From: Herbinix luporum
Lineage (GTDB): Bacteria; Bacillota; Clostridia; Lachnospirales; Lachnospiraceae
Direction of reading: 5' to 3'
Assembly (NCBI RefSeq): GCF_900070325.1
Contig: NZ_LN879430.1
Coordinates: 1,543,379-1,607,378 of the forward strand
DNA: 64,000 bases
Numbering within the stretch: position 1 is the stretch's first letter; every line of letters begins with the position of its first letter. The position numbers and the translations under genes are program-made. This document shows, one piece after another, positions 5,546 to 30,304 of the stretch. The notes under the pieces were generated by a model, which searched no databases, was not told the DNA's origin, and was given only the letters and a program-made list of their open reading frames with translations.

Positions 5546-5803
5546 ATGGCAAAAAATCAAAAATCCTATACCCCAGAATTTAAACAGCAGATTGTAGATC
5601 TGCGCAATAAAGCTGGTAAAAGTGTAACAGAGTTATCAAACGAATATGGCGTTCCCAAAGGCACAATTTCTACTTGGGTAAAACTTCTTTCTCAAGTACA
5701 GGTTTCAGAAACAGAAACCATTTCTATGAAAGAGTATAAGGCTCTTCAAAAGAAAATGAAGGAACTAGAGATAGAGAATGAAATATTAAAAATAAGCTTA
5801 TAG
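5546..5803 (+). CDS. IS3-family transposase OrfA
   Basis: An 85-residue DNA-binding subunit. The N-terminal helix-turn-helix (YTPEFKQQIVDLRNKAGKS, then YGVPKGTISTWVK) is typical of IS3 OrfA. A leucine-zipper-like C-terminal helix (LQKKMKELEIENEILK) would mediate contact with OrfB. The start is ATG 5546 behind AAAGGAG. In this family an OrfAB fusion is made by frameshifting. OrfB here lies about 50 bases downstream in another frame with an in-frame stop between, so how the fusion forms is unclear. Confidence 0.9.
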   Translation: MAKNQKSYTPEFKQQIVDLRNKAGKSVTELSNEYGVPKGTISTWVKLLSQVQVSETETISMKEYKALQKKMKELEIENEILKISL

Positions 5804-5852
5804 CCAACAAGTTGGCTTTTGCCATATTTGCCAAAAATCAATAGCTGAGTAC

Positions 5853-6713
5853 GTGTCCTTTATTCAAGCTAATCTTGATAAATATACTATTAAACAAATG
5901 TGTAAGGTACTTAAGTTTCCTCGTAGTACCTACTATGCTGAAATTAATCATATTACATCTCAAAGAGAGATAGAATACAACAAATTTAGTGAAGAAGTTC
6001 AATTTTACTATGACCAGTCCAAGGGACGTTATGGTGCTATTAAGATACAGCGAGACCTTGAAGAAGCTGGTATCCCTTGTTCAGTCAAAAGAGTGCAGAG
6101 ACATATGGCTAAGTTTGGTCTTCGCAGTGTTGTGGTACGCAAATATAAATATCAAAGTAATCAGGGTAAGATTCCTGAGGATAAAGAAAATATACTGAAT
6201 CAAGATTTTAACGCTACAACAATAAATCAAAAATGGGTTACTGACATAACATATATACATGTTCTAGGCGAAGGCTGGACTTACCTAGCATCCGTTATGG
6301 ACTTATATAATAGAAAAATCATAGGTTATTCGTATGGTAAAAAAGCAACCGCCGAGTTGGCTAAAAAGGCTGTAGAAAACGCATGTATTAATGTAAAAGA
6401 TACTACAGGTATTATTCTTCATAGCGATTTAGGCAGCCAATATACAAGCACTGTATTTGAAGATATGATAACAGAAAAAAATATGAAGCATTCCTTTAGT
6501 AGAAAAGGAAATCCTTATGATAACGCTTGTATAGAGTCCTTCCATTCAGTATTGAAGAAGGAAGAAGTATATCTAAATACATATCATACATTTGAAGAGG
6601 CTGGAGCAGCTCTATTCGAATATATTGAGTCTTGGTATAACCGCAGAAGGAGGCATAGCGCACTGGATTATAAAACCCCACAACAGGTTGAAGATGAGGC
6701 TCTTGCAGCTTAA
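5853..6713 (+). CDS. IS3-family transposase OrfB (DDE integrase)
   Basis: A 286-residue catalytic subunit. The N-terminal HTH_21-type region (about 50-95, YGAIKIQRDLEEAGI) precedes a retroviral-type integrase core. The DDE triad is visible as WVTDITYI, HSDLGSQYTS and NACIESFHSVLKKE. The C-terminal YNRRRRHSALDYKTPQQ is characteristic. The start shown is GTG 5853, and the same frame is open upstream, as expected if the protein is normally made as an OrfAB fusion. It appears intact. Confidence 0.9.
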   Translation: MSFIQANLDKYTIKQMCKVLKFPRSTYYAEINHITSQREIEYNKFSEEVQFYYDQSKGRYGAIKIQRDLEEAGIPCSVKRVQRHMAKFGLRSVVVRKYKYQSNQGKIPEDKENILNQDFNATTINQKWVTDITYIHVLGEGWTYLASVMDLYNRKIIGYSYGKKATAELAKKAVENACINVKDTTGIILHSDLGSQYTSTVFEDMITEKNMKHSFSRKGNPYDNACIESFHSVLKKEEVYLNTYHTFEEAGAALFEYIESWYNRRRRHSALDYKTPQQVEDEALAA

Positions 6714-6772: not shown

Positions 6773-6800
6773 AAGTATTGACATAGGTCCACACCTCCTC
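6773..6800 (-). pseudogene. First codons of a trio-type serine recombinase, cut by IS3
   Basis: Reading the - strand, a GAGGAGGTG ribosome site and an ATG at 6784 align with the start region of the intact recombinase at 29162 (both carry CACCTCCT and TTTGGTAGG on the + strand). Only about four codons remain before the IS. This shows that the SHOCT-like gene at 6839-7084 was once followed by a recombinase trio. Confidence 0.6.
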
Positions 6801-6838
6801 TTTGGTAGGCCACATGTTACCGTTAAAACCCTTATATA

Positions 6839-7084
6839 TCAACGATTTAAGGGCATTATCTTCACTAAAATAGGTGAGAAAGTTTCACGATTTAATTCAT
6901 TAATTTTGTTAAATTCCACCTTGTCTATTAGCCCCTTATTAAACATTTTTTTCAGGATTCTTTCAGCCTGTGAATAGTTAAATTCTCCTTGCAGCTGGTC
7001 ATCAGATATTCTTGTAGATAAATTTTCCTCTTCTAAAATTGCATTGGATATTTTACTTGTCTTTTTATTTTCTATTTCTTTCAT
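6839..7084 (-). CDS. Small SHOCT-like protein, copy 1
   Basis: An 81-residue protein with a good TAGGAGGT ribosome site. Its C-terminal half (AERILKKMFNKGLIDKVEFNKINELNRETFSPIL) matches the proteins at 10116-10334 and 29215-29445 and has the short two-helix pattern of SHOCT domains. In both other copies the gene is directly upstream of the recombinase trio. A recombination accessory role is therefore possible but unproven. Confidence 0.6.
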   Translation of the reverse strand: MKEIENKKTSKISNAILEEENLSTRISDDQLQGEFNYSQAERILKKMFNKGLIDKVEFNKINELNRETFSPILVKIMPLNR

Positions 7085-7160
7085 ATGGCATTACCTCCTA
7101 CTTAATAGCCACAGGAAGGGCTATAGGTTGAGGTTTGAGAAAACATATCTAAAAAAAGGC

Positions 7161-7194
7161 ATAAAAAAATGCCTGCAGGAATTTTCCCACAGGC
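7161..7194 (-). terminator. Terminator after amidase remnant
   Basis: On the - strand GCCTG...CAGGC is followed by ATTTTTTTAT. It lies between the amidase tail and the SHOCT-like gene, as do the terminators at 29523 and 10047 in the other two modules. Confidence 0.65.
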
Positions 7195-7203
7195 TTATAT
7201 ATG

Positions 7204-7230
7204 TTAATCATATTTAATAAAGGCATTAAT
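7204..7230 (-). pseudogene. Last codons of an amidase (direct repeat, left copy)
   Basis: On the - strand this encodes NAFIKYD and a stop, the end of the SPOR-tailed amidase (TDAFIKYD). Positions 7204-7226 match 9638-9660 at 22 of 23 bases in the same orientation, so the cargo at 7231-9637 is flanked by direct repeats of the amidase 3' end. Confidence 0.65.
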
Positions 7231-7263
7231 CACTAGTAAAGGGTGGAGAATATTAGATGTTTA

Positions 7264-7902
7264 CTAAATCAGTAAAGTAATTATTCTGTTATTAATTTCA
7301 ATCAGTCCTTCATCCTTCATGTTTTTTAATTCACGAAATAAAGAAGGCCTTTGAACACCAAGATGGTCTGCAAGTTGTTTTTTACTTATGGGAAGATAGA
7401 TTGTTTTAGAATTTTGAATATTGGCTTGAGCAGACAGGTAGTTTGTGAGATTTTCTCTTAAAGATTTTTGGGTGTATATTGCAATTTTTCTATTAAGACC
7501 TTGTGAGTTAGAAGATAAAATTTTTATAAACTCTATTGCAAAAAGCTGATCTTTCAACAATGTGTCTACAGCAGATTTGGGGATATATATCAGACTAGTT
7601 TCCTCTATACTATAAATATTTAAAGGATATTTGTTATTATCACCAAACAAAAGATTAGCCCCTACTACACCACCACTAGTAAATTCAAATACAGTTGTTT
7701 CTGAACCATGACTAGTTAAAGAGTAAGCAACAAGCTTGCCTGATAGAATTACATCTATTCCAGAACAAACTTCGTTTTGGTCATGAACAGTTTTACCCTT
7801 ATTATAAATTCTATTTTGAAGATTATAGGTTCCAATTACATTTTTTAAAAGCAAAGTATCTACATTTCTAAAGAGTGATATATTCTTTAATATATTAATC
7901 AT
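7264..7902 (-). CDS. Crp/Fnr-family transcriptional regulator
   Basis: A 212-residue protein. The N-terminal cyclic-nucleotide-binding-type beta barrel spans about 10-120 and the C-terminal winged helix about 150-212 (KKQLADHLGVQRPSLFREL as recognition helix). It has a single cysteine, so it cannot hold an Fnr-type iron-sulfur cluster; an effector cannot be named. It starts at ATG 7902 behind AAAAGGGGAAC. It is divergent from the cupin/permease genes, with a 121-base shared control region holding an imperfect palindrome at 7939-7955, and probably regulates them. Confidence 0.85.
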   Translation of the reverse strand: MINILKNISLFRNVDTLLLKNVIGTYNLQNRIYNKGKTVHDQNEVCSGIDVILSGKLVAYSLTSHGSETTVFEFTSGGVVGANLLFGDNNKYPLNIYSIEETSLIYIPKSAVDTLLKDQLFAIEFIKILSSNSQGLNRKIAIYTQKSLRENLTNYLSAQANIQNSKTIYLPISKKQLADHLGVQRPSLFRELKNMKDEGLIEINNRIITLLI

Positions 7903-7938
7903 AAGTTCCCCTTTTTATTTTAATTATAACAAAAAGAA

Positions 7939-7955
7939 ACATAGGTGTCTATTGT
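7939..7955. promoter_or_regulatory. Candidate Crp/Fnr operator
   Basis: ACATAG-GTGT-CTATTGT is an imperfect palindrome with a four-base centre, the half-site spacing used by Crp/Fnr proteins. It lies in the divergent intergenic region between the regulator (7902) and the cupin gene (8024). Confidence 0.35.
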
Positions 7956-8023
7956 ATTTAGTTTTATGATGGTAAGATTGAAATATAAAATTTAATTTTA
8001 AAATAATAAAGGAGAGATTTAGA

Positions 8024-8338
8024 ATGATAGAAAAAACATTTAATTTATCAAAAGGCAATGAAAAAGCAGTAGAAAAAGTTATATTCGATGAAAATATACA
8101 TTATCTACACATGGTTTTTAATGAGAATGAAGGTTTACCAGAGCATTATTCAAACTCCAATGTCTATATGACTGTTATAAGAGGAGTTCTATCTATAGCT
8201 TTAGATGAACAAGAAGCTCATGAATACAGCTACAATACCTTATTAAAGATTCCAGAGGGGACAAAAATGAATGTAAAAAATCTTCATAAAGAAACACTAG
8301 AAATCATTGTTGTAAAAGCACCAGCTCCAAAAGCTTAA
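8024..8338 (+). CDS. Cupin-domain protein
   Basis: A 104-residue small beta-barrel protein. The region EGLPEHYSNSNVYMTVIRGVLSIAL fits cupin motif 1, although most metal ligands are not obvious (one His in PEHY). The second motif region is YNTLLKIPEGTKMNV. It starts at ATG 8024 behind AAAGGAGAG. It is the first gene of a cupin-permease-permease group controlled with a divergent Crp/Fnr regulator, an arrangement I recall from anaerobic Firmicutes. The substrate is unknown. Confidence 0.65.
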   Translation: MIEKTFNLSKGNEKAVEKVIFDENIHYLHMVFNENEGLPEHYSNSNVYMTVIRGVLSIALDEQEAHEYSYNTLLKIPEGTKMNVKNLHKETLEIIVVKAPAPKA

Positions 8339-8354
8339 AAGGAGGGCGATAAAA

Positions 8355-8837
8355 GTGGATATATTTACAATTATTTTATGGTTAATTACTCTTGTTTTTC
8401 TTTTCATATCCTTTAAAAAGGATGGAGCTAAAACGAAAAAGGCTTTAAAAATGGCACTTAATATGGGAAAAGGTATGGCCATAAGCATTTTTTCTATTAT
8501 TTTAGCAATAGGTCTAATCCTAACATTTTTACCCCCTACAGAAATTGCAAGCTTTGTAAGCAAGCAGTCTCTTTTTCTGGCAACTGTTGGTTCGGCTTTA
8601 TTTGGAACAATTACCCTCGTTCCAGCATTTATAGCCTTTCCTTTGATAGGAACTTTAGTAGATGCAGGAGTAGGTATTGTCCCTTCAGTAGCTTTCTTGA
8701 CTACTCTTACCATGGTTGGATTTGTTACATTTCCACTGGAAAAAAAGGAGTTTGGTACTAAATTCACCTTAGTTCGTAACGGCTTTAGCTTTGTTTTTGC
8801 AATAGTTATTGCACTTGTAATGGGGGTAATTATATGA
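8355..8837 (+). CDS. Permease subunit (COG0701/UPF0718-like), first half
   Basis: A 160-residue membrane protein with about four or five hydrophobic segments. It starts with GTG at 8355 behind AGGAGGGCGAT. The pattern GTITLVPAFIAFPLIGTLVDAG is typical of the DUF318 permease family, where two such halves form one transporter. It overlaps the next gene by four bases (ATGA), indicating translational coupling. Related proteins include arsenic permeases, but no substrate can be assigned. Confidence 0.7.
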   Translation: MDIFTIILWLITLVFLFISFKKDGAKTKKALKMALNMGKGMAISIFSIILAIGLILTFLPPTEIASFVSKQSLFLATVGSALFGTITLVPAFIAFPLIGTLVDAGVGIVPSVAFLTTLTMVGFVTFPLEKKEFGTKFTLVRNGFSFVFAIVIALVMGVII

Positions 8838-9550
8838 ACATAATTAAAAAAGCAAAAGATAATTTATTTTTTATACTAGTTCTTCTTGTATACCTTTTAA
8901 TAAGTATTTTTAGGCCAACAATGGCCTTTGAGTCAGTCAAAAATAGTGCTTATTATATAAAAGAAATGTTAATAATAATGCCTGTAATTTTTGTTTTAAC
9001 AGCCCTTTTAGATTTATGGGTTCCTAAGGATAAGATAATGCAACTTTTAGGAAAGGAAGCAAAGGGAAAAGGGTTAGTCTTATCATTTATAATTGGTAGC
9101 ATTTCAGCAGGTCCTATTTATGCTGCCTTCCCAATGTCAATAATGCTTCATAAAAAAGGAGCTTCTATAAGAAATATTGTAGTTATTTTAAGCTCTTGGG
9201 CTGTAATTAAGATACCAATGCTTTTAAGCGAGGCAAAATTCCTAGGTCCTAAGTTTATGATCATACGTTGGGTTCTAACTGTTTTAGCTATAATCATATT
9301 TTCTTGGATTGCTGATAAAATAATAAAAGATGAAGATATTCCGAATAAGGAAGAAGTAAAAGTTGGTATAGAAATTAATAAAAAGGCTTGTATTGGATGT
9401 AGCTTATGTGTTAAAACTTACCCTGAAGTATTTAAAATGGATGGGAAAAAAGCTTTTGTTAAGGATTATGATGAAGATACAGTAAATAAGGAAAAACTTA
9501 ATGAAGCAGTAAAGGTTTGCCCAGTTAAGGCAATTGAAAGTGATTTATAG
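8834..9550 (+). CDS. Permease subunit with C-terminal ferredoxin domain
   Basis: A 238-residue protein. The first about 165 residues form a DUF318-type membrane domain (SIGSISAGPIYAAFPMS-like segment near 88-103). A cytoplasmic 4Fe-4S ferredoxin domain follows from about 178, with CIGCSLC and VCPVKAI supplying four cysteines for one cluster. The fusion implies that transport is coupled to, or sensed through, an electron carrier. It is coupled by overlap to the preceding permease half. A terminator follows at 9576. Confidence 0.75.
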   Translation: MNIIKKAKDNLFFILVLLVYLLISIFRPTMAFESVKNSAYYIKEMLIIMPVIFVLTALLDLWVPKDKIMQLLGKEAKGKGLVLSFIIGSISAGPIYAAFPMSIMLHKKGASIRNIVVILSSWAVIKIPMLLSEAKFLGPKFMIIRWVLTVLAIIIFSWIADKIIKDEDIPNKEEVKVGIEINKKACIGCSLCVKTYPEVFKMDGKKAFVKDYDEDTVNKEKLNEAVKVCPVKAIESDL

Positions 9551-9575
9551 ATTCATCAAATTAAAACCATGAATA

Positions 9576-9617
9576 AAGACCATGCCTAGATTTTAATCTA
9601 GACAGCATGGCCTTTAT
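9576..9617 (+). terminator. Terminator after permease operon
   Basis: A long hairpin (GACCATGC, CTAGATT / AATCTAG, GCATGGCC) is followed by TTTATCATT. The stem is nearly symmetrical and could act in both directions. Confidence 0.6.
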
Positions 9618-9637
9618 CATTGTGTAGTAAATAAATA

Positions 9638-9826
9638 TTAATCATATTTTATAAAGGCATCAGTGAAGCCAGCTTTTTTAGCTTTTGCTAGTTGAGTTTC
9701 AGCATTAGCTTTAATGGAATAGGCCCCTATTTGGACTCTATAGAGTTTCTTTGTAGCAGGGGTACTAGTAGCAGGCTTACTTTCCCCAACTAATAATTTC
9801 TTAACATCTGCCCTAAAAGTATCCAT
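9638..9826 (-). pseudogene. Amidase C-terminal fragment (SPOR domain), - strand
   Basis: 62 codons encode MDTFRADVKKLL, a linker, then LYRVQIGAYSIKANAETQLA and AFIKYD. This matches residues about 175-234 of the intact amidase at 29576-30277. The N-terminal amidase_2 domain is absent. The fragment ends abruptly at the centre of a perfect palindrome, where a second copy begins in the opposite direction. Confidence 0.85.
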
Positions 9827-9846
9827 ACTTTTAGGGCAGATGTTAA
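9801..9846. repeat. Perfect 46-bp palindrome at an inversion joint
   Basis: Two 22-base arms are separated by CC (9823-9824). The arms begin TTAACATCTGCCC and end GGGCAGATGTTAA. Each arm is the coding sequence for FRADVK of the amidase, so the palindrome is the head-to-head junction of two amidase copies. Confidence 0.9.
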
Positions 9847-10024
9847 GGCAACACTATGTTGCAAAAATGATTTAAAAAAGACACCTGCATCTCCCCCATC
9901 ATCCTCCCCTACTAAACTATATAGAGTTCAAGTAGGAGCATATGCTGTTAAAGCTAATGCTGATGCTATGTTAAAAAAGGTTAAGGCTGCAGGTTTTACT
10001 GATGCCTTTATAAAAACTGAATAA
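9825..10024 (+). pseudogene. Amidase C-terminal fragment (SPOR domain), + strand
   Basis: In the frame of ACT TTT AGG the + strand reads TFRADVK, a short linker, then LYRVQVGAYAVKANADAML and DAFIKTE with a TAA at 10022-10024. It is a second, diverged tail of the same amidase family, with no N-terminal domain and no start codon. A terminator, a SHOCT-like gene and the recombinase trio follow, the same order as in the prophage at 30277 down to 25608. Confidence 0.8.
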
Positions 10025-10046
10025 TTAAATTTTTACTACGGATTTT

Positions 10047-10085
10047 CCCCCTCACTGTCCTTTAGATAGTGAGGGGTTTTTCTTT
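10047..10085 (+). terminator. Terminator after + strand amidase fragment
   Basis: CCCCTCACT pairs with AGTGAGGGG and is followed by TTTTTCTTTTT. Confidence 0.8.
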
Positions 10086-10115
10086 TTCCCTTAATACCTT
10101 TAAAGGAGAAAATAC

Positions 10116-10334
10116 ATGAAAGAGAATCCAAATCTAGAATTTACTCAATTATCAAACAAACAACTAGAAGATGAAGTCAGCTATTTTATTGCTCAGAAAC
10201 TATTATCCTCTTTGCTGGATAAAGGACTAATAAGTACTACAGAATACCAAAAAATCACTTTTCTAAACAGATCCTCCTTCTCTCCTATTTTAGCTGCAAT
10301 AATGCCTGAAACCCTTGATATAAGTGAACTGTAG
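10116..10334 (+). CDS. Small SHOCT-like protein, copy 2
   Basis: A 72-residue protein, ATG behind AAAGGAG. The pattern AQKLLSSLLDKGLISTTEYQKI, then LNRSSFSPILAAIMPE, matches the other two SHOCT-like copies in the window. It lies 34 bases upstream of the first recombinase of the trio, probably co-transcribed. Function unknown; its constant place suggests it belongs to the recombination module. Confidence 0.6.
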   Translation: MKENPNLEFTQLSNKQLEDEVSYFIAQKLLSSLLDKGLISTTEYQKITFLNRSSFSPILAAIMPETLDISEL

Positions 10335-10368: not shown

Positions 10369-11931
10369 TTGAGAAAAGTAAAAATAATCGAGCCCTTAGC
10401 TAATGAAACAAGTAATATAGAGAAATTAAACGTTGCAGTCTACTGCAGAGTATCTACTGACAATACAAAGCAACTAGATAGTCTAGATGCTCAAATAAGA
10501 CATTATGAAAGTTATATTAAATCAAATAATAAGTGGACGTTAGCTGGAGTTTATTATGATGAAGGGATGACAGGAACAAGCAAGGACAAAAGAACTGGGC
10601 TTCTTAATCTAATTAAGGACTGCAAAGAAGGTAAAGTTAATTTAATTATTACAAAGTCTATCAGTAGATTAGCAAGAAATACAGCCGACTGCTTAGAACT
10701 AGTTCGGAGCTTTACAGAACTTGGGGTTTATTTATATTTTGAAAAAGAGAATATAAATACTCAGTCTATGGAAAGTGAACTCATGCTCTCCATCCTAGCT
10801 GGACTGGCCGAGAATGAATCGTTATCTATTTCTGAAAATACTAAATGGTCTATTAGACGTAGATTTCAAAATGGAACTTATAAAGTTTCTGATCCACCCT
10901 ACGGCTATGATGCACGAAATGGAAAACTAGTTATCAATGAAGAAGAAGCTAATATAGTTCGACATATTTTCTCTGAAACCTTGGCAGGCAAAGGTGGTCA
11001 AAAAATAGCTAACGAATTAAATAAAAGAAATATAAAAAGTAAAAGAAACTCAAAATGGACTGCTAATACAATACTTGGCATGTTACAGAATGAACGATAC
11101 ATCGGCGATGCTCTTTACCAGAAAACTTATATGGACAGTAATTATAAGCGACATACAAATTATGGGGAAAGGGATATGTACTATATTAGGGATAATCACT
11201 CCCCTATCATTAGCCGTGAGGACTTTGAAGCCACTGCCTTAGTTTTAGAACAAAGATCCAAAGAAAAAAACATTACTAAAGAAGATAGTAAATACCTAAA
11301 TCGATACGCCTTTTCTGGAAAGATTAATTGCAAACATTGTGGGGCTAATTTTAGAAGAAGAACTCACACAAGTGGCCGACACCCTATCGCTTGGTGTTGT
11401 TTCACCCATATTAGTAACATAAAAGCTTGTCCTATGAAGTATATACCTGATTCCTCTTTTAAACATGCATTTATAACCATGTTTAACAAGCTAGTTTTTG
11501 GATACGAAAAAATCTTAATTCCTCTTTATACTAGTCTACAAAACTTTAATAACGAGGATAATTTAAAACTTCTTGAAGATATAGAAATTCAACTTAAGGA
11601 AAACCATCAACAAAGGGATGTCTTAGTTGAGCTTCTAGCAAAAAATTATCTTGATCCTGCAATTTATAGAGAAAGTAATAACAAACTCCTTCAGGAGGCT
11701 AAAAAGCTACAAGAGGAAAAAAACACTTTAAACCGCATGATAACTAGTAGCTCTGAGGAACTCAAGGAACTGAATAAACTATTACTTTTCTTAGCTAAGG
11801 CTGATATGATAAACAATTTTGAAGATAAGCTTTTTAATGATATTGTAAAAGACATTTCAGTTTTTTCAAGAGAAGAAATAAATATAAATCTAAAATGTGG
11901 ACTAAGTCTTAAAGAAAGGCTGGTGATATAA
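10369..11931 (+). CDS. Large serine recombinase, trio A gene 1
   Basis: A 520-residue protein starting with TTG behind AAGGAGGTG. The resolvase catalytic domain is at about 20-170, with the nucleophilic Ser in YCRVST, then SISRLARNT and ENESLSISENTKW. The recombinase domain is at about 185-290. A zinc ribbon follows with CKHC (about 323-326) and later cysteines (WCC, ACPM), then a long coiled coil about 400-480 and a beta tail. All expected catalytic residues are present. The next gene begins directly after the stop codon, so the three genes are one operon. Enzymes of this kind integrate and excise phages and conjugative or mobilisable elements. Confidence 0.9.
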   Translation: MRKVKIIEPLANETSNIEKLNVAVYCRVSTDNTKQLDSLDAQIRHYESYIKSNNKWTLAGVYYDEGMTGTSKDKRTGLLNLIKDCKEGKVNLIITKSISRLARNTADCLELVRSFTELGVYLYFEKENINTQSMESELMLSILAGLAENESLSISENTKWSIRRRFQNGTYKVSDPPYGYDARNGKLVINEEEANIVRHIFSETLAGKGGQKIANELNKRNIKSKRNSKWTANTILGMLQNERYIGDALYQKTYMDSNYKRHTNYGERDMYYIRDNHSPIISREDFEATALVLEQRSKEKNITKEDSKYLNRYAFSGKINCKHCGANFRRRTHTSGRHPIAWCCFTHISNIKACPMKYIPDSSFKHAFITMFNKLVFGYEKILIPLYTSLQNFNNEDNLKLLEDIEIQLKENHQQRDVLVELLAKNYLDPAIYRESNNKLLQEAKKLQEEKNTLNRMITSSSEELKELNKLLLFLAKADMINNFEDKLFNDIVKDISVFSREEININLKCGLSLKERLVI

Positions 11932-12345
11932 ATGAGCCACACACCCATTGGCTATCAAATAAAAGATAGAAAAGCCCTTATTGACAAAGATAAGGCTAAA
12001 CAAGTCCAACTTTTATATGACGTCTATTTAACAGGCGCATCTTTAACATCAACTGCAAAATCAGTAGGTTTGAATCTAACTCATTCTAGTGTAGGTAGAA
12101 TACTTCAAAACACCTCTTATTTAGGTGATGATTATTATCCGCAGATTATTAAAAAAGAGACTTTTGATGCCGTTCAACTAGAGCGGGAAAAAAGAGCCAA
12201 AAAACTAGGCAGATTCTTTCCTAAAAAAGAAAAGACGCCTGTCTGCTACCCAAAGACATTTAGATTAGAAAAGCAAGAAAAAAAGTACAATGACCCCTTT
12301 AAACAGGCTGAATATGTTTATAGCTTAGTTCAAATAAAGGAGTGA
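11932..12345 (+). CDS. Recombinase-domain protein without catalytic domain, trio A gene 2
   Basis: A 137-residue protein that corresponds to the recombinase DNA-binding domain alone (HTPIGYQIKDRKALIDKDKA, then LQNTSYLGDDYYPQIIKKETF). It has no resolvase domain and no catalytic serine motif. The C-terminal third is basic, with a terminal NDPFKQAEYVYSL segment also found in its counterpart at 27183-27596. It is translated directly after gene 1. It may be a DNA-binding or directionality partner for the two full enzymes. Confidence 0.8.
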   Translation: MSHTPIGYQIKDRKALIDKDKAKQVQLLYDVYLTGASLTSTAKSVGLNLTHSSVGRILQNTSYLGDDYYPQIIKKETFDAVQLEREKRAKKLGRFFPKKEKTPVCYPKTFRLEKQEKKYNDPFKQAEYVYSLVQIKE

Positions 12346-12349
12346 TTAA

Positions 12350-13924
12350 ATGGTAAGTGATAAGAAAGTTACGGTGATTCCTGCAAGGAAAACAAAGGAA
12401 AGAACAAAAGATAATAAAAACCCTAAGCTTAGAGTTGCTGCTTACTGCCGTGTTTCTACTGAAAATGAAGAACAAGCATCAAGCTATGAAACTCAAATCA
12501 GTCATTATACTTCTTATATTAAGAATAGGCCCAATTGGAAACTGGCAGGTATTTTTGCTGATGATGGTATCTCAGGAACAAATACTAAGAACAGAGAAGG
12601 CTTTAATAAAATGATAGACGACTGTATGACTGGAAAAATAGATATGATTATCACCAAGTCTATTAGTAGATTTGCTAGAAATACTTTAGACTGCTTAAAA
12701 TATATAAGAATGCTTAAAGATAAAAACATAGCAGTATTCTTTGAAAAAGAAAACATCAACTCAATGGACTCTAAAGGTGAAGTTATGCTAACCATTATGG
12801 CTTCTTTAGCCCAGCAAGAGAGTCAGTCCTTAAGCCAAAATGTTAAAATGGGCATACAATACAGATATCAGCAAGGCGAAGTTAGAGTAAATTGCTCCAG
12901 GTTTCTTGGTTACACTAAAGATAAAAATAAAAAACTTGTAATTGTACTTGAAGAAGCTGAGGTTGTTAAACGCATATATCGTGAATACTTAGAAGGTAAC
13001 TCTATGCTTAAAATTAAAAGACGCCTAGAGGCTGATGGAATATTAAACGGAGCAGGTAATAAGATATGGCATACTAGTAATATTTCTAAAATACTGCGAA
13101 ATGAAAAATATATCGGTGATGCTCTTTTACAAAAAACCTATACTGTTGACTTCTTAACTAAAAAACGGGTCAAGAACAATGGTTTAATACCCCAATACTA
13201 TGTAGAAAATAACCATGAACCTATTATCCCAAAAGATATTTATATGCAGGTACAAGAGGAATTAGCCAAAAGAAGGTCCCCCTATACCAGCCCTAGCGGG
13301 AATAAAAGAACTTACAGTAGCAATCATTGTTTTGCTAACATAGTTATTTGTGGAACTTGTAAAGAAATCTACCGCAGAGTCCATTGGAATAATCGTGGAA
13401 AGAAATCCATTGTATGGAGATGTGTTAGTAGGCTAGAAAACACTGGACAGTTTTGTGATGCTAGAACAGTCCACGAGAAAGATATAGAAGAATCTATTAT
13501 AAAAGCCATCAATAACATTTTAAATAAAAAGGATTGCTACCTCCCTATCTTGAAAAATAATATAGCTTCTGTTTTAAATAATGAGAAGAACAAAGAACTA
13601 GATAATATAGAAAACAAGCTAAATGATTTGCAGCAGAAACTGTTAAGCTTAGTACATTCCAGCTCCAACTACGATGAGATAGCAGAGGAAATTCATCAGT
13701 TGAGGGATAAGAAGCAAGACCTTCTTCTGAAAAACGCAAGGCAGGAAGAAGTCAATAAAAGAATTGAAGAAATGACAAACTTCCTAAATGAACAAGATAC
13801 CACCCTCATAGAACATGATGAAACTCTTGTAAGACGAATTGTTGAAAAAGTCTGGATTTATGAAGATAAATTTACAATAGAATTTAAGTCTGGCTTGGCG
13901 GCAGATGTTAATGAACAAGGCTGA
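12350..13924 (+). CDS. Large serine recombinase, trio A gene 3
   Basis: A 524-residue protein. The catalytic domain is at about 25-170 ([44 protein letters not shown]). The recombinase domain is at about 190-300 and a zinc ribbon (CGTC, WRC, FCDA) at about 340-385. A coiled coil runs through about 400-490, followed by a beta tail ending AADVNEQG. It appears complete. It follows gene 2 by four bases and is closed by a terminator. It is most similar to the third gene of trio B (25608-27179), not to gene 1, so the two full enzymes of each trio are distinct lineages. Confidence 0.9.
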
Positions 13925-19052: not shown

Positions 19053-20953
19053 ATAGAGTAGAACAGTGGGGTTACCACCGTCCCCTCATCAAACCGTACG
19101 TGCGGTTTTCCCGCATACGGCTTTCCGATATTCTTCTTCCTTCAGCTTTCAGCCACACATACTTGCTAGTCCTGCCTGTTTAGTCAATTCTCTGACCTTT
19201 GCTGCATTTCCTAGCCTATAATTGCGTTGTTTCTTCCGATTGTACCACCGAGTAAACTTGAAATTGATATACTTATCTATCTTCCATAACCATGGTCTGG
19301 TAAATCTTCTGGTATAATAGTTTCTCATGCCAATGATTTTAGGATTGAGTAGCTTCACCATCTCTTCCATACTTAACAGTAGCTTGCTTGGACTGGCAAA
19401 CACCTCTTTTATGTTAGCCCTCATTTTCTTCATAGCCTTCTTAGACGGTATCTGTTGTAGCGTCCAATACCACTGCCAGTTTTTATTTCTAAAACGCTGA
19501 AATCTATTATTGAAGCCAAGAAAATCAAAACTGTCCTTTCCGAAATACATATCAACTAGCCTTGTCTTCTCACTATGTAGTGTTAGTTCCAGCTTTCCCA
19601 TTATCCACTTCACAGCGCGAAAGGCTTCTTCTGCATGAGATAACCTCTTGCACAATATCACAAAATCATCTGCATAACGCACTAATTCACCCAGATGTCC
19701 AAAGGCTTTATTCCAATACACATCAAAATAATTCAGATATATATTGGACAATAGTGGAGAAATAACTCCTCCCTGTGGTGCTCCCAGTGTGCTCTCACTA
19801 TACCTACCGTTTTCCAATACCCCCGCTTTTAACCAGCCTTTTATCAGCTTTAACACTCTACGGTCAGTTATTCTTTGTTTGACTAGCAAAAGTAGCTTAT
19901 CATGATTGATGCTACCAAAATAATCTTTTATGTCAGCATCTATTACCCATAGTGCACCACCTTTGTCAGAAACTTCAAATATCCTGTCCATTGCTTGTTT
20001 GGCACTTCTTTTCGGTCTAAATCCATACGAACAGGGTTGAAAATCTGCTTCAAACACAGGCTCTATCACTATCTTTGCTGCCATCTGTACTATTCTGTCC
20101 TTAATCGTAGGTATCCCCAATGCTCTTTTTCTACCATCCGGTTTTGGAATATAACTTCGTCTGACAGGCTTACACCGGTACTTCCCAGTCCTCAATTCTT
20201 CCGCTATTTCGCCCAGCAGTTTTTCTTCGCCGTACGTTTTCACATCATCAATGCTGACTTTATCAATACCGCCTGTTCCACCATTCTGTTTTACCCGTTT
20301 CCATGCTTCTTCTAAGATATCGTTACGGTATATCTTGTCATACAACGCATAGAACCTTCTCTTTCGGTCAGCTTTGGCTGTAAGGTATAGTCTGTTTTGG
20401 AAGTCTCGTACTTTTTCATGGGTGTTTATAGCTTTTTCGGCAATCACCGGTACCTACCTCCTTTACAGACTTGAATAAAGTTGTGCCCCTTCCCTATGCA
20501 CAGTTTTGTTGTCTGTACAATCCTTGGTACTATGAGCACTTCTGACTGCCTCTTTGCAGAAAGCAACTTCGCTTTTGCTTATATGCTTCCTATTTACAGT
20601 TTCCTGTGCAAAGTAGGCTCTCTCCAGTTCCGACAAATACTTTCCTGACGTGTCGTTACCTCTACACCGCAGGGTTCTTAGGTATTGCATTTAGGGTTCT
20701 TCATACCGTCTGCTGTCTTCGCTGTTGATGTCGCAGCTCGACTCCCTGTTGTTTCCTTTCGGAAATGTAAATAACGGTGCGGCAGTATTCACTTTATGTT
20801 ACAACCCGCCAGTTTGCCTGCTCCTTTCGGAACATTCCGTAACGCTTCAACGCATAGATTACTCCATACGCTGGTTACTGACTAAGTGGCTGCCCTACCT
20901 TTACCACTGCAGGACTTTCACCTGCTAGCATTTGCCAGCTTAGCTGGACGCAC
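19053..20953 (-). mobile_element. Group II intron, 1901 nt
   Basis: The - strand begins GTGCGTCCAGC (20953 downward) and ends CTCTAT (19053), matching the group II GUGYG start and AY end. A domain V hairpin is visible at about 19092-19125 (GCCGTATGCGG, GAAA-type loop, CCGCACGTACGG), followed by a domain VI stem with a bulged A. It encodes its own reverse transcriptase. The boundaries are supported independently by the uninterrupted site at 4356-4370, where ATTGATGT is joined to CAAGGGT. The inverted orientation relative to that site follows the target. Confidence 0.9.
19149..20447 (-). CDS. ltrA: Group II intron reverse transcriptase/maturase
   Basis: A 432-residue protein. The reverse-transcriptase domain spans about 65-315, with GIDKVSI, RRSYIPKPDGRKRALGIPT, SYGFRPKRSAKQA, APQGGVISPLLSNI and the catalytic RYADDFVIL. 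The maturase X domain follows at about 330-400 (GMRNYYTRRF). There is no HNH endonuclease domain, so mobility would use nicked or replicating DNA rather than intron-made second-strand cuts. The gene lies in domain IV of the intron and appears intact. It promotes splicing and retrohoming. Confidence 0.95.
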   Translation of the reverse strand: MIAEKAINTHEKVRDFQNRLYLTAKADRKRRFYALYDKIYRNDILEEAWKRVKQNGGTGGIDKVSIDDVKTYGEEKLLGEIAEELRTGKYRCKPVRRSYIPKPDGRKRALGIPTIKDRIVQMAAKIVIEPVFEADFQPCSYGFRPKRSAKQAMDRIFEVSDKGGALWVIDADIKDYFGSINHDKLLLLVKQRITDRRVLKLIKGWLKAGVLENGRYSESTLGAPQGGVISPLLSNIYLNYFDVYWNKAFGHLGELVRYADDFVILCKRLSHAEEAFRAVKWIMGKLELTLHSEKTRLVDMYFGKDSFDFLGFNNRFQRFRNKNWQWYWTLQQIPSKKAMKKMRANIKEVFASPSKLLLSMEEMVKLLNPKIIGMRNYYTRRFTRPWLWKIDKYINFKFTRWYNRKKQRNYRLGNAAKVRELTKQAGLASMCG

Positions 20954-21144: not shown

Positions 21145-21933
21145 TTAGAGATTAAGGGAAGACTCTATAGACTTCTTCATATTATTAACGAGTTCAGTCA
21201 CCTCAGAATCCATTCCTTTCCACTTATCAATATACCCTCCTAGATAAGCCTTTCTTGCTTTGTCAAGTAAAATGGCATGCTCATAAGGTAATTGAGGTAT
21301 TGCCCATTCAGCTGCCAGATCTTTTGATCTGATTTCACCAGTAGATGCTGTCACCCACATTCTGGCTAAAGTTAAAATCACATTGCGTTCGTCACCTTTA
21401 ATGCTAGTTATCAACCCGGGCAACGATTCTTTAATTGCTTTTCGAATATCTGTCATTGGCACAGGCTCAATTACTTCTGTTGCCTTTGGTCCCAAAAGGT
21501 TAATACTATTTTTTCTTAGTTGTGCTAAAAGTATTGCTAAATCCGGATCATAAGTCGACTCAGGAATTTCTCCCTTTTCAAACTGCTCTCTTAGCCACTC
21601 GCCATACATAAATTCATATTTGGGGGGGAAATGCCAAGGGACAATATCCTTTTGATTTATGACCGTAACTTCAAGAGGCCTCATATCTTTTATGTTTCCT
21701 ATTTTCCCAGATATAAGCATTAACCTATTTGTAAGATTCCTTCGAGTTTTTTCAGATAAACTTTGATTTGTTATTACCAAAATATCTACATCGCTATTCA
21801 TACGTAAACCACCCATTACTGCCGAACCATACAAATACACCCCAATTAACATATTATCAAGTAGTTCCGCTATAGTTTTTAATGCTTGAATTGCTTCTTT
21901 CGGAATTTTTTTGTTATTTAAATCTATACTCAA
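21145..21933 (-). CDS. ant(9): Aminoglycoside (spectinomycin) 9-adenylyltransferase, ANT(9) type
   Basis: A 262-residue protein that closely follows AAD(9)/AadA-type enzymes, which transfer AMP from ATP to spectinomycin. The nucleotidyltransferase motif is GVYLYGSAVMGGLRMNSDVD (about 31-50), followed by RPLEVTVINQ and GDERNVILTLARMWVT. The start is TTG 21933, eight bases behind AAAGGAG. Length matches the family (about 260). It is the last gene of the resistance cluster and follows apt and ant(6). All key acidic residues are present, so it is probably functional. Confidence 0.85.
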   Translation of the reverse strand: MSIDLNNKKIPKEAIQALKTIAELLDNMLIGVYLYGSAVMGGLRMNSDVDILVITNQSLSEKTRRNLTNRLMLISGKIGNIKDMRPLEVTVINQKDIVPWHFPPKYEFMYGEWLREQFEKGEIPESTYDPDLAILLAQLRKNSINLLGPKATEVIEPVPMTDIRKAIKESLPGLITSIKGDERNVILTLARMWVTASTGEIRSKDLAAEWAIPQLPYEHAILLDKARKAYLGGYIDKWKGMDSEVTELVNNMKKSIESSLNL

Positions 21934-22064
21934 CTTCGATCTCCTTTCGTCTGAAAACTGTTTTTTAACGCCTCTTAAAATTTATAAAAAAAGAGTAAAC
22001 ATCTTTCGTTGTATTGTAAATTAACGCCATCCAAAATTTTGATTCAAGATTTTCTTTCGGTTTA

Positions 22065-22592
22065 TTATATGTTTGAGCCAATATAAGCTACAAAACTGCT
22101 GTCTATCCATTTTTGAGTAACCTCATTTATATCAATCCCAATAGTAGCCAACCCAATAATGCTGCAATCCAATTTCTCTAACAAAGCTATTAAAGCCTTC
22201 ATTTGAGAACCTGTCTCTATCCAATCATCTACAATCAAAACTCTTTTGTTCCTCACAATAGAACTCTTAGATATTTCAAAGCTTTTATCTTGACCTGAAT
22301 AGTCGGTAAAATGTGTCGAAATAATCTCTTCTTTTGCGTATGGCAGCTTATCACCTTTTCTTACTCCAATAAACCCCACTCCAAGTTCTTTGGCTATGGC
22401 AGTGCCTAGTATCCATCCAATTGCTTCTGGGGCAGCCACATAATCTACTTTATTTTGAAAATCCAATGATAGTACTTTTACAATTTTATCAAAAACGGTT
22501 TTATGTGTAAAAATAGTTAGTAAATCATATTTTCCAATTGAGTTACGAGGTAATATACCTCTAATTTCATTTATAACATCAGTACTTTCCAT
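22065..22592 (-). CDS. apt: Adenine phosphoribosyltransferase-like protein
   Basis: A 175-residue PRTase-fold protein. The PRPP-binding motif is VLIVDDWIETGSQM (about 118-131). The central YVAAPEAIGWILGTAIAKEL fits purine PRTases. In Gram-positive resistance islands an apt-like gene commonly lies between aadE/ant(6) and a spectinomycin-resistance gene, the order found here. Its direct role in resistance is not established. It starts at ATG 22592 behind AAGGGG. Confidence 0.8.
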   Translation of the reverse strand: MESTDVINEIRGILPRNSIGKYDLLTIFTHKTVFDKIVKVLSLDFQNKVDYVAAPEAIGWILGTAIAKELGVGFIGVRKGDKLPYAKEEIISTHFTDYSGQDKSFEISKSSIVRNKRVLIVDDWIETGSQMKALIALLEKLDCSIIGLATIGIDINEVTQKWIDSSFVAYIGSNI

Positions 22593-22635
22593 ACATTTAC
22601 ACCCCTTGCTTATGGTTAATAATCTTTGCTAATCT

Positions 22636-23499
22636 TTAAAAATAGTCATTTTCAACATATTTTTTATACATGTCCTCGGTATATCTTGTTATGTTCTTAC
22701 CATACTCTGGATAATCAAACCCCAGTAGTTCTGCTACCTCTTTGGACACTTCCCTGAACAATTGGTGGCATATAAATAATGACTTCCAAATATTTTCATA
22801 GGAATCCATGCGATATGTAGATAATAATCTATTCCATAGATCTTCATCAATGTATTTGTTAATATACTTATAATTTTTCCCAACACTTAATGAAAATTCT
22901 GTCTTTATCCCAACCTTCCACGACATCATCCTAAGTAGTTCAAACCGTAGAATCTGGTTCAGATGATCGATTGCAAACAGTATCTCTTTGCGGCACAATC
23001 CTTTAATAACATAAGGTGTTACATTCCAAAATTCATTGCAGCAATCATCATACTCCCTTGCGCTTGGCTTTCTTACATGATAATCTATATCAGTCGGAAC
23101 TATGTCCCTTTTAATTCTACAATCTTTATCAATTAGAACCTTTATTAATTTATCGCCCTTTAGGTAATTATCTAACTCTTCCAAGGGCAATAAGGTAAGA
23201 TCAATTTTATTGTAATCATCAAATAGCATAAGATAGGAAAATCCCTTTTCTTCAGGTGGGAATAATTCCATATCCTCCGGCTTTTGCATCATTATTATAT
23301 TCCCAAATTGATTAAGCCAGTCATCATTAGATATAAACGGTTCTATATCACTTACAAAATATGTAATATCATAATCCTGAAATTCATCTTTAGGTATATT
23401 AATATTTGCGCGTGACCCCTCAAGGGTCACAATTCGAATACGTTCATCCTGTTCTGCTAAAGAAAGTACTAAATCCATCATTTCTTTTTCTGATCTCAT
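22636..23499 (-). CDS. ant(6): Aminoglycoside (streptomycin) 6-adenylyltransferase
   Basis: A 287-residue ANT(6)/AadE-type protein. The nucleotidyltransferase signature is TLEGSRANINIPKDEFQDYD (about 24-43), with the second acidic strand in YNKIDLTLLP. The later FWNVTPYVIKGLCRKEILFA and GKNYKYINKYI are typical of the family. Length is close to the usual 285-300. It starts at ATG 23499 behind AGGAG. It inactivates streptomycin by adenylylation. It is 43 bases upstream of apt, in one operon. Confidence 0.9.
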   Translation of the reverse strand: MRSEKEMMDLVLSLAEQDERIRIVTLEGSRANINIPKDEFQDYDITYFVSDIEPFISNDDWLNQFGNIIMMQKPEDMELFPPEEKGFSYLMLFDDYNKIDLTLLPLEELDNYLKGDKLIKVLIDKDCRIKRDIVPTDIDYHVRKPSAREYDDCCNEFWNVTPYVIKGLCRKEILFAIDHLNQILRFELLRMMSWKVGIKTEFSLSVGKNYKYINKYIDEDLWNRLLSTYRMDSYENIWKSLFICHQLFREVSKEVAELLGFDYPEYGKNITRYTEDMYKKYVENDYF

Positions 23500-23531
23500 T
23501 TACATACTCCTCGTTTATTTTTTCTATATTA

Positions 23532-24266
23532 TTACATCTTCTTTTTTGCCGATACAATCAGCATCATTGGGCGTCGCATTTCATCCGCCATCCCCGGAAT
23601 ATCCATCATGTTCTCTGGCGGCTGTGGCTCCACAATCTGATTTATTATAAAACTATTTGAAAGCAGTGTATTTAGATATGTGGTCAGTGTTCTATGATAT
23701 TTTGTAACCTTTTCTTCCAAAAACATAGCTGTCCGTTTGCCCTCATAATAATAATTGTCCACCGGGAAATGCAGTATTTCTCCTTTTTCGTTATAATACC
23801 AGTCTTGTGTTCCATGAGCAGTAAAAACAGGATGTTCAACTGTAAAAACTAAATTGCCACCAGCCTTCAGCATCCTATATATCTTTTTTATTAAATTCTC
23901 ATAGTCTGCTACATAATGAAACGCAAGCGAACTTAGTATTACATCAAAGCTCTCCTCTGGGAAATCCACATCTTCTATGGCACAGCATTCATATTCAATC
24001 TGTGGAAAATGGGTTTTTCCTTTTGCTACTTCGAGCATTTTATGAGAAATATCAACACCTACTACAGAGGAAGCACCGTTTTCCATCGCATATATACAGT
24101 GCCATCCATAGCCGCATCCTAAATCAAGCACACGCTTACCCTTAAAATCAGGTAGCATCTTTTTCAAAGTCTCCCATTCTCCCGCACCAGCCAGTCCTTT
24201 CTGCGAGCGACTCATTTGACTGTATTTTTGAAAAAATATATTATCATCATATTTGTTTTCTTTCAT
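23532..24266 (-). CDS. Class I SAM-dependent methyltransferase
   Basis: A 244-residue protein. SAM-binding motif I is VLDLGCGYGWHCIYA (about 45-59), motif II is VVGVDIS, and the strand LSSLAFHYVADYENL follows. It is a small-molecule type methyltransferase (Methyltransf_11-like). It lies between a nucleotidyltransferase and ant(6), overlapping the former by 20 bases. The same neighbours occur in Gram-positive resistance clusters as I recall, but the substrate is unknown. Confidence 0.8.
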   Translation of the reverse strand: MKENKYDDNIFFQKYSQMSRSQKGLAGAGEWETLKKMLPDFKGKRVLDLGCGYGWHCIYAMENGASSVVGVDISHKMLEVAKGKTHFPQIEYECCAIEDVDFPEESFDVILSSLAFHYVADYENLIKKIYRMLKAGGNLVFTVEHPVFTAHGTQDWYYNEKGEILHFPVDNYYYEGKRTAMFLEEKVTKYHRTLTTYLNTLLSNSFIINQIVEPQPPENMMDIPGMADEMRRPMMLIVSAKKKM

Positions 24267-25116
24267 CTGAACTCTCCTCGTTTAAAAAGTTATTTATCTC
24301 CGATACAATTTCATTCACTTCATTATAAAGCTTCTCGGTCATGTCGTAGCATTCAAAAAGTGAGATACCGAGTACTTCAAAAATATGATTTACCTTCTCG
24401 GTATATTTTTCAGGTTTATGTTCAAAAGTTTCAAGCAGTTTTATAGCTTTCTTTTCGTTGATACAATAAGCATTATTACATGCAAATAACACTTGATTTA
24501 AACATGAAACTATACGAAAAACATGACCCGCAATATAATATTTATCGTCTGTTCCCGAATTTGCTTTTACAAACATTAAAGAGAACCCTGCTTCAAACAT
24601 AAAAAAGTTAACTAAACTTTTCTGCAAAGCATTGGGATAAGTTTCTGCCTGTTTTTTTAATTCGCATAAGCTTTCATTCTTAGCATATAGTATTTTGCTA
24701 ATCGCTAATTCTCCTCGATACATTGCACTAATATAACCATGGGGATGCCCAGTCTGATAATTGGCAGTAACAATTCCGTGCTCTGTATCTTTCATTATTT
24801 GTTCCACACGTTTAATATCACGTAAAATTAAATCCACATGATACCCGTTTATGACTAACCATCCGCCGCCATTAATCCAATCACCCCATGCTCCGGGAGG
24901 TACAACAAGGTTATTTCTATGCTCATCATCCAGCTTTGTAGCGAATTGATTAATAGTATTTATGTCAAATGATTCTGAATTGTAATAGATGCCGATATCT
25001 ATATCCGAATCCTCTGTATGGGTGCCCCTTGCACGTGAACCACCTAAAACAATACCTTCTATATAAGACAGAGAGGATAATTTCTCTGCTACTGATTTAA
25101 TAATATTATCTACCAT
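24247..25116 (-). CDS. Nucleotidyltransferase-domain protein (aminoglycoside-type)
   Basis: A 289-residue protein with the Pol-beta nucleotidyltransferase signature GIVLGGSRARGTHTEDSDID (about 22-41), an active-site GS and paired Asp. A third acidic residue is probable in HVDLILRD. The C-terminal half is helical. ATG 25116 was chosen because AAAGGAG lies eight bases upstream; an earlier in-frame ATG at 25164 has no ribosome site. It could modify an antibiotic or be a MNT-type toxin-like enzyme; context favours resistance. Confidence 0.75.
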   Translation of the reverse strand: MVDNIIKSVAEKLSSLSYIEGIVLGGSRARGTHTEDSDIDIGIYYNSESFDINTINQFATKLDDEHRNNLVVPPGAWGDWINGGGWLVINGYHVDLILRDIKRVEQIMKDTEHGIVTANYQTGHPHGYISAMYRGELAISKILYAKNESLCELKKQAETYPNALQKSLVNFFMFEAGFSLMFVKANSGTDDKYYIAGHVFRIVSCLNQVLFACNNAYCINEKKAIKLLETFEHKPEKYTEKVNHIFEVLGISLFECYDMTEKLYNEVNEIVSEINNFLNEESSDERKQI

Positions 25117-25218
25117 CAAGCATGCTCCTTTTATCGATTCACTGCTGTAAAAATTCCAAGCCAAATCTTTTGCTTCTACTCAACATATTTATAATTTTTT
25201 TAATTTCACAAAAGATAG

Positions 25219-29575: not shown

Positions 29576-30277
29576 TTAATCATACTTTATAAACGCATCC
29601 GTAAAGCCAGCCTTTTTCGCTTTGGCAAGCTGGGCCTCTGCATTGGCTTTTACGGAATAAGCACCGATTTGAACGCGGTAGTATTTCTTTTTCTCTGTTT
29701 CTCCAGATTTAGCTCCTTCACTTAAGAGGCTTTTTACATCTGCACGAAATGTATCCATGCTCTTTCCATGCTTAGGAAACCAGTTTTTCGGATCACCATG
29801 ATTACTTGCGATTCCTCTTTGATAGCCTTCATAATGGCCAATAATATCTTTTTCAGTTAGATTGTATAATTTGCAAAGATAAACACAAAGCTCTACCGCT
29901 TCTTTATAAACCGCATTAAAATACGAGGCATCGGTCAATCCATCCTCGCATATTTCAAAACCTATATGGGTATCATTCGCTGCACCTCCAGCATGCCAGC
30001 CACGATGGGTCCATGGCAATGTCTGATAGGTTGCAATTGAACCATCTGCCAACTTGCCTATGAACGCATGAACACAAACCTGTCGACCATCGGGTTTGTC
30101 TTGATTCCAGTGATTGCCGTATTGATTTTTACCCAACAGGCCATCATCAGGTGCTACATAGCGCTTCAACCAAGGATTGTTAGCCCCAGTTGAATGAACC
30201 ATGATACCTTTCGGCGTTATTGTCCTGTTTGCCTTAAAGCAGGCATTGTTAGTAAGTATTTGTTTTCGTAAATTCAT
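29576..30277 (-). CDS. N-acetylmuramoyl-L-alanine amidase with SPOR domain (endolysin)
   Basis: A 233-residue protein. The amidase_2 domain spans about 20-165, with zinc ligands suggested by MVHSTG (His about 28) and ASNHGDPKNWFP near 158 and an EICEDG segment. A linker leads to a SPOR domain (YYRVQIGAYSVKANAEAQLA, about 198-233) that binds glycan. It cleaves the peptide stem from muramic acid at lysis. ATG 30277 has GAGGTGAT upstream. Two truncated relatives lie at 9638-10024. Confidence 0.9.
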   Translation of the reverse strand: MNLRKQILTNNACFKANRTITPKGIMVHSTGANNPWLKRYVAPDDGLLGKNQYGNHWNQDKPDGRQVCVHAFIGKLADGSIATYQTLPWTHRGWHAGGAANDTHIGFEICEDGLTDASYFNAVYKEAVELCVYLCKLYNLTEKDIIGHYEGYQRGIASNHGDPKNWFPKHGKSMDTFRADVKSLLSEGAKSGETEKKKYYRVQIGAYSVKANAEAQLAKAKKAGFTDAFIKYD

Positions 30278-30304
30278 CACTTATCACCTCAATTAATAGC
30301 ATGA

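Follow-up and report, generated by a model that had tools for sequence, protein, structure and literature searches.

The window, i.e. the whole 64,000-nt stretch of Herbinix luporum DNA analysed here, carries the 3' ends of two different SPOR-tailed endolysin genes, joined head to head at a palindrome. Tail A (9638..9826, minus strand) encodes 62 amino acids and starts at the internal Met of KSMDTF, and tail B (9827..10021, plus strand) comprises 65 codons without a start of its own, followed by a stop codon at 10022-10024; each of them begins at (MD)TFRADVK. Both tails match Pfam SPOR and the PHROG 15001 'endolysin' family (phrog_15001). The initial annotation had described each palindrome arm as coding for FRADVK of a SPOR-tailed amidase, once leftwards and once rightwards. 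The coding and its two directions stand, as TFRADVK of an endolysin; the amidase catalytic domain itself is absent from both tails, whose profile match begins only at position 187 or 189 of 367. The statement that the two copies have diverged beyond the palindrome agrees with our comparison, the SPOR parts being 75 % identical at the DNA level (over 112 nt) and the whole tails 61 % identical at the protein level. Identical residues use the same codon in 7 of 7 cases within the arms vs 16 of 29 outside; arm-to-arm copying was considered for this codon identity and dropped, since the full-length A parent described below makes copying unnecessary.

The palindrome occupies 9800-9847 and is perfect over 48 bp. 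Its 23-nt arms (left, 9800..9822, where TFRADVK reads leftwards; right, 9825..9847, where it reads rightwards) are 100 % complementary and flank the centre CC (9823..9824), which is GG, the natural orientation, in the sense of A. The initial annotation had the place, the perfection and the two-base centre right, and fell short only in length (46 bp, 9801-9846, with 22-nt arms), one further base being paired on each side. This is the longest perfect hairpin arm of the 64-kb window (loop up to 10); once it is masked, the longest one remaining has 16 pairs, and the longest arms in simulated windows range from 8 to 13 (first-order Markov, n = 12). The 48-bp palindrome is far above chance expectation. 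As single-stranded DNA it folds with -23.2 kcal/mol, against a shuffle mean of -3.9.

Several candidate functions of the palindrome were rejected. It has no T-run, which rules out a functional terminator, and terminator-like sites were found only at 10048-10076 (plus strand) and 9604-9583 (minus strand). Two promoter-like sites, both inside the palindrome and each with 9 of 12 matches, were discarded as promoters, 2.3 being expected from shuffles; there is one on each strand because the palindrome is symmetric. That the internal ATG serves as the start of a small SPOR peptide was ruled out as well: inspection by eye revealed no ribosome-binding site, and the hairpin covers the start.

To the left of tail A lies the cargo of prophage A (7227..9630), made up of a Crp/FNR-like regulator (minus strand), a small protein of 104 aa and two ArsP-like permease halves; of these, the first narrowly misses the Pfam cut-off and the second has a ferredoxin domain. 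On its far side stands a second copy of the endolysin A 3' end (7197..7226, minus strand, 27/30 nt). The cargo is bracketed by two such copies (7197-7226 and 9631-9660), and the Peptoniphilus stercorisuis locus introduced below has both too. Next comes the SHOCT_2 small ORF of prophage A (6839..7084, minus strand). On the other side, tail B is followed by an intrinsic-terminator-like hairpin (10048..10076, plus strand), a SHOCT_2 small ORF (10116..10334, plus strand) and three serine recombinase ORFs (520, 137 and 524 aa; 10369..13924, plus strand). The two large recombinase ORFs match the phrog_95 integrase, and the 137-aa ORF is assigned by its Pfam Recombinase domain only. The locus resembles those of SPOR-tailed endolysins (phrog_15001) adjoining multi-recombinase integration modules, sharing with them the tail, its SPOR domain, the SHOCT_2 ORF and the serine recombinase ORFs; unlike these endolysin genes, both genes are broken here and only their 3' ends are present.

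Full-length relatives of the two sides

Relatives were found by pattern scans of one genome per species (2 matches) and of viral contigs (5 matches), scans that may leave out records of the window's own genome. An A-type full-length gene of 235 aa is present in P. stercorisuis DSM 27563 (L225), where it adjoins the same cargo genes. Identity between the window and this locus amounts to 97.8 % over 2,765 aligned nt for positions 7071-9833 and to 95.8 % for positions 6792-9833; similarity ends at 6792, next to ORFs (5546-6713) recognised by eye as an IS3-like element. In the 4.5 kb upstream of the A gene, up to the contig end, P. stercorisuis encodes a surface-like protein, large and repeat-containing, and inspection by eye recognised no phage structural gene there; the A parent could therefore be a remnant as well.

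B-type full-length genes of 240 aa were found in IMG/VR contig L027 and in Clostridium sp. cel8 (L226). Positions 9814-10089 of the window are 97.5 % identical to L027 over 276 nt, with IMG/VR contig L029 aligning likewise, and 96.4 % identical to Clostridium sp. cel8 over 278 nt. The L027, L029 and L226 alignments all end at 10089, just past the hairpin at 10048-10076, and the recombinase module beyond 10089 is of another type than in B-type phages; the terminator may therefore mark a module boundary. Among other hosts, only Clostridium sp. cel8 was found to carry a B-type together with an A-like endolysin on one contig. Its B-type and FIKYD-type (A-like) genes (G051:C1:52698-52892, plus strand, and 78621-78791, minus strand) are about 26 kb apart, tail to tail. 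Plasmid records gave no match. Among phage records, 8 were found with tail B, only one of which covers at least 80 % of it, at 61 % identity; another search returned 103, and the 20 listed all match from window position 10275 rightwards, i.e. on the SHOCT/recombinase side.

The left flank being 97.8 % identical to the P. stercorisuis A locus and the right flank 97.5 % identical to the IMG/VR B contigs, the earlier proposal that the two copies come from different prophages is borne out. Its corollary, that the joint is not a fold-back of one copy, holds with it, as there are two separate full-length parents.

A quasi-palindrome shared by both parents

At the site of the palindrome, both full-length parents read GGTAAAAGTATGGATACTTTTAGGGCAGATGTTAA. 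This contains a natural 20-bp quasi-palindrome, TAAAAGTAT-GG-ATACTTTTA, with 9-bp arms and the codons K-S-M-D-T-F. Present in the full-length relatives of both sides, it has been retained in the window as a single copy (9814..9833, TAAAAGTAT CC ATACTTTTA). It is spanned by an exact run common to the A and B parents, 128 nt long between A and L226 and 129 nt between A and L027, and this shared block ends at GTTAA(G), the same point as the window arms. Aligning the two tails outward, the check suggested by the initial annotation, gives the same picture: identity stops at the arm ends, where the parental block also ends. Because the 14 nt after the quasi-palindrome are identical in both tails, the 9-bp arms grow to 23 nt and the palindrome is perfect over 48 bp.

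Shared parental sequence suffices to explain the perfect identity of the arms, and parentage alone accounts for the palindrome, since the end of the arms coincides with that of the parental block. The initial annotation gave no reason for the identical arms; it lies in a quasi-palindrome placed within a 128-129-nt block that both parents share. Hairpin-guided repair was also considered for the arm identity and is needless, the parents already being identical there.

The quasi-palindrome is uncommon among homologues. We compared 113 other distinct loci fitting M[DET]TFR.[DE][VIL], with gene C of the window among them and loci of identical surroundings entered as one, drawn in one case from the best 80 of 130 and in another from the matches listed; arms at this site are 9 bp long in two of them, 8 bp in one and at most 5 bp in the remaining 110. 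Two of the three exceptions, L027 and L028 (both with 9-bp arms), were fetched only by a pattern requiring the left arm, L025 being reached by another search too, and the frequency of the quasi-palindrome is therefore more likely overstated than understated. Gene C, the full-length endolysin of prophage C (29576..30280, minus strand), belongs to the same family and lacks the quasi-palindrome; it served for comparison only. By itself, the natural quasi-palindrome is a weak hairpin: the parental sequences fold with -7.8 and -6.5 kcal/mol, and 13 and 19 of 200 shuffles, respectively, fold at least as well. Upstream of the palindrome, the endolysin cores of the two parents are 83-84 % identical over 510 nt.

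The join itself can be placed narrowly. Leftwards from 9833, 68 nt of the window agree fully with the A parent; over the 59 nt rightwards from 9814, the two centre bases are the sole differences from the B parent L027. The match to A thus holds up to 9833 and that to B from 9825, which leaves an interval of 9 nt (9825..9833) for the switch from A to B. The centre bases derive from the A gene, since they read GG in the sense of A, opposite to the full-length B genes.

Proposed origin of the joint

Most probably, the palindrome is a rearrangement scar without a function of its own, left where two prophages were joined and the DNA between them was lost through a short-homology deletion. The end-to-end fusion of two prophage remnants that had been put forward earlier is supported, the flanks matching two different full-length parents; the deletion and its short-homology mechanism are what we infer.

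In the precursor, the A and B genes would have stood head to head in two prophages. The two quasi-palindromes would then have been near-perfect direct repeats (18/20), a palindrome having the same reading on either strand, and would have bounded, on the outside, inverted copies of the endolysin core; the cores of the relatives would form inverted repeats inside the direct repeats (510 nt, 83-84 % identical). All DNA between the quasi-palindromes would have been lost and one copy kept, with the centre of A and the switch within 9825-9833. Strand exchange could have occurred by slipped mispairing across the stem or by a template switch at a broken fork, the product being the same for both. With two whole prophages between them, we estimate that the repeats would have been tens of kb apart, farther than in the DIRex cassette discussed below. 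Given this distance and cores that are only 83-84 % identical, the model may require that DNA had been lost earlier or that a template switch acted over a long distance.

Neither the endolysin search nor the DNA of the A and B relatives found a 5' half of A or B in the 2.61-Mb genome, which favours deletion with fusion over a balanced inversion. Tails aside, B-relative DNA gave only matches of 68-84 % at other places (40 of 43 candidates scored), and DNA from upstream in the A relative yielded a single match of 70 %, at prophage C (40 of 46 candidates scored). No genome in our searches showed the head-to-head precursor, and the Clostridium sp. cel8 pair counts against the model, being arranged tail to tail and not head to head. 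The joint was not found in the 33 further genomes of the genus, which in many cases are incomplete: among the 34 searched, own genome included, 14 reach a completeness of 90 % or more with contamination no higher than 5 %, and for a few not all candidates were scored. Nor does it occur among the matches of the viral-contig or one-genome-per-species pattern scans; it is known from one assembly.

Alternative explanations

Inversion was the other origin named in the initial annotation. The two prophages would have had the same orientation, the segment between their endolysin genes would have been flipped at the quasi-palindromes, and the reciprocal 5'-to-5' junction would have been lost later. 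Such a course would yield the same local sequence, and the endolysins of prophage C and at 1627678-1628238 point as A does, with B opposite. We regard it as unlikely, although it is the best placed of the alternatives. The endolysin search of the whole genome (a single contig of 2,609,352 bases, scored 99.98 % complete) gave four matches at E up to 1, i.e. two long genes and tails A and B; none of them is a 5'-to-5' junction, and inversion is not borne out. A balanced inversion should have left both 5' halves united at another place; with neither the reciprocal junction nor a 5' half found in the genome, a further loss has to be assumed. Moreover, in same-orientation prophages the 128-129-nt blocks are direct repeats, between which recombination leads to deletion and one whole hybrid gene, and an inversion must use the quasi-palindrome, which is much shorter than these blocks.

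A chimera of two contigs, formed during assembly or library construction at the shared palindrome, has in its favour that one assembly only is available and that palindromes are awkward templates. We hold it to be very improbable: the genome forms one 2.61-Mb contig, 99.98 % complete, and at no other place in it was either parent gene found, although a misjoin of two real loci might leave them; no more than about 20 nt are shared, and the join is exact.

Large serine recombinases act on quasi-palindromic sites with a two-base centre, and their joining of two like half-sites requires that this centre be self-complementary. The three resident ORFs begin about 0.5 kb to the right of the palindrome, and the centre of the site is indeed two bases, which is what would suggest site-specific recombination at the quasi-palindrome. 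The joint, however, unites two like half-sites around a centre, GG/CC, that is not self-complementary. The site is not a conserved attachment site either, because it is coding sequence and the arms reach at most 5 bp in 110 of the 113 other distinct homologues. Recombination of this kind is hardly credible. Even less can be said for a reading of the tails as alternative 3' ends of one endolysin gene, in which the palindrome would be a recombinase crossover swapping the cell-wall-binding tail and the window would show the excised or re-joined state; we give it scarcely any weight.

Lastly, a fold-back (U-turn) duplication of a single copy followed by divergence, as in tandem inversion duplications, has practically no chance of being correct: the perfect arms and a natural quasi-palindrome suited to a snap-back speak for it, but the two separate parents refute it, since past the arms the two sides have their near-identical full-length counterparts in different genes of different genomes, so that the divergence is older than the joint, and the flanking genes differ, with cargo on the left only.

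Comparison with known rearrangements

Precise excision of Tn5 and Tn10 consists in the loss of DNA between short direct repeats that flank inverted repeats, an arrangement from which exact loss is known in enteric bacteria. The deletion proposed here resembles precise excision as known for Tn5/Tn10, MIRAGE and DIRex in that one repeat of about 20 bp is left, the intervening DNA has been lost and the ends are joined exactly. For DIRex, 20-bp direct repeats outside inverted repeats are reported to suffice for precise excision in S. enterica, the inverted repeats being identical and about 800 bp long (PMC5576700). Two features set the present case apart from the DIRex type. The repeats are here themselves a quasi-palindrome with a mismatched centre (18/20), which gives a longer perfect palindrome as product, and the part of the inverted repeats would fall to two prophage genes of 83-84 % identity, presumably separated by a great distance.

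Tandem inversion duplication in S. enterica and ODIRA in yeast produce a head-to-head joint at a natural short inverted repeat. The joint in the window likewise is head to head and formed at such a repeat; unlike in those processes, where one locus is duplicated, its sides are two different prophages. Microhomology-mediated template switching in E. coli is reported with 3-30 bp at embedded inverted duplications (PMC3161906), and an inverted join with microhomology, here of 9 nt, is common to both. Those events are amplifications in starving cells under selection (PMC3161906), whereas we see a single old joint and no change in copy number. A prophage fusion of this kind was not met in the literature searched (titles and abstract openings, most subscription journals being outside its coverage).

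The event is of a known kind and reveals no new system. The scar is ordinary, and the evidence for what was joined, and where, is unusually complete: full-length relatives of both sides are known and the crossover is placed within 9 bases. This makes it an unusually well documented natural case of a short palindrome in coding sequence directing the fusion of two prophages. It further illustrates that where two genes are fused at a perfect palindrome, neither an active element nor gene conversion has to be invoked, as sequence common to the parents is enough.

Prophage surroundings

This stretch of the chromosome is a prophage graveyard, holding the A and B tails, the endolysin of prophage C, another one outside the window and the end of a decayed holin gene. 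The endolysin outside the window is full-length (G000:C1:1627678-1628238) and on the minus strand like C. The decayed holin gene lies just left of the window on the plus strand (G000:C1:1542690-1543013, i.e. L230 1501-1824); past it, an apparent endolysin start and a recombinase end form a further prophage relic, as judged by eye. This holin relic was tried as the missing half of A or B and rejected, being only 68 % similar and then running into other, frame-broken sequence (by eye).

A resistance island (21145-25164, minus strand) adjoins the recombinase end of prophage C. It carries ANT(9) and ANT(6) aminoglycoside nucleotidyltransferases above the NCBIfam cut-offs, together with apt-like, methyltransferase-like and nucleotidyltransferase-like genes below them. 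Beside the resistance genes stands a 432-aa ORF (19149-20447, minus strand) that looks by eye like a group II intron reverse transcriptase. Finally, two IS3-like copies that have a 286-aa ORF in common (by eye) are located at window positions 5853-6713 (plus strand) and at L235 16533-17393 (minus strand), about 8.5 kb apart, and the segment between these opposed copies could be invertible.
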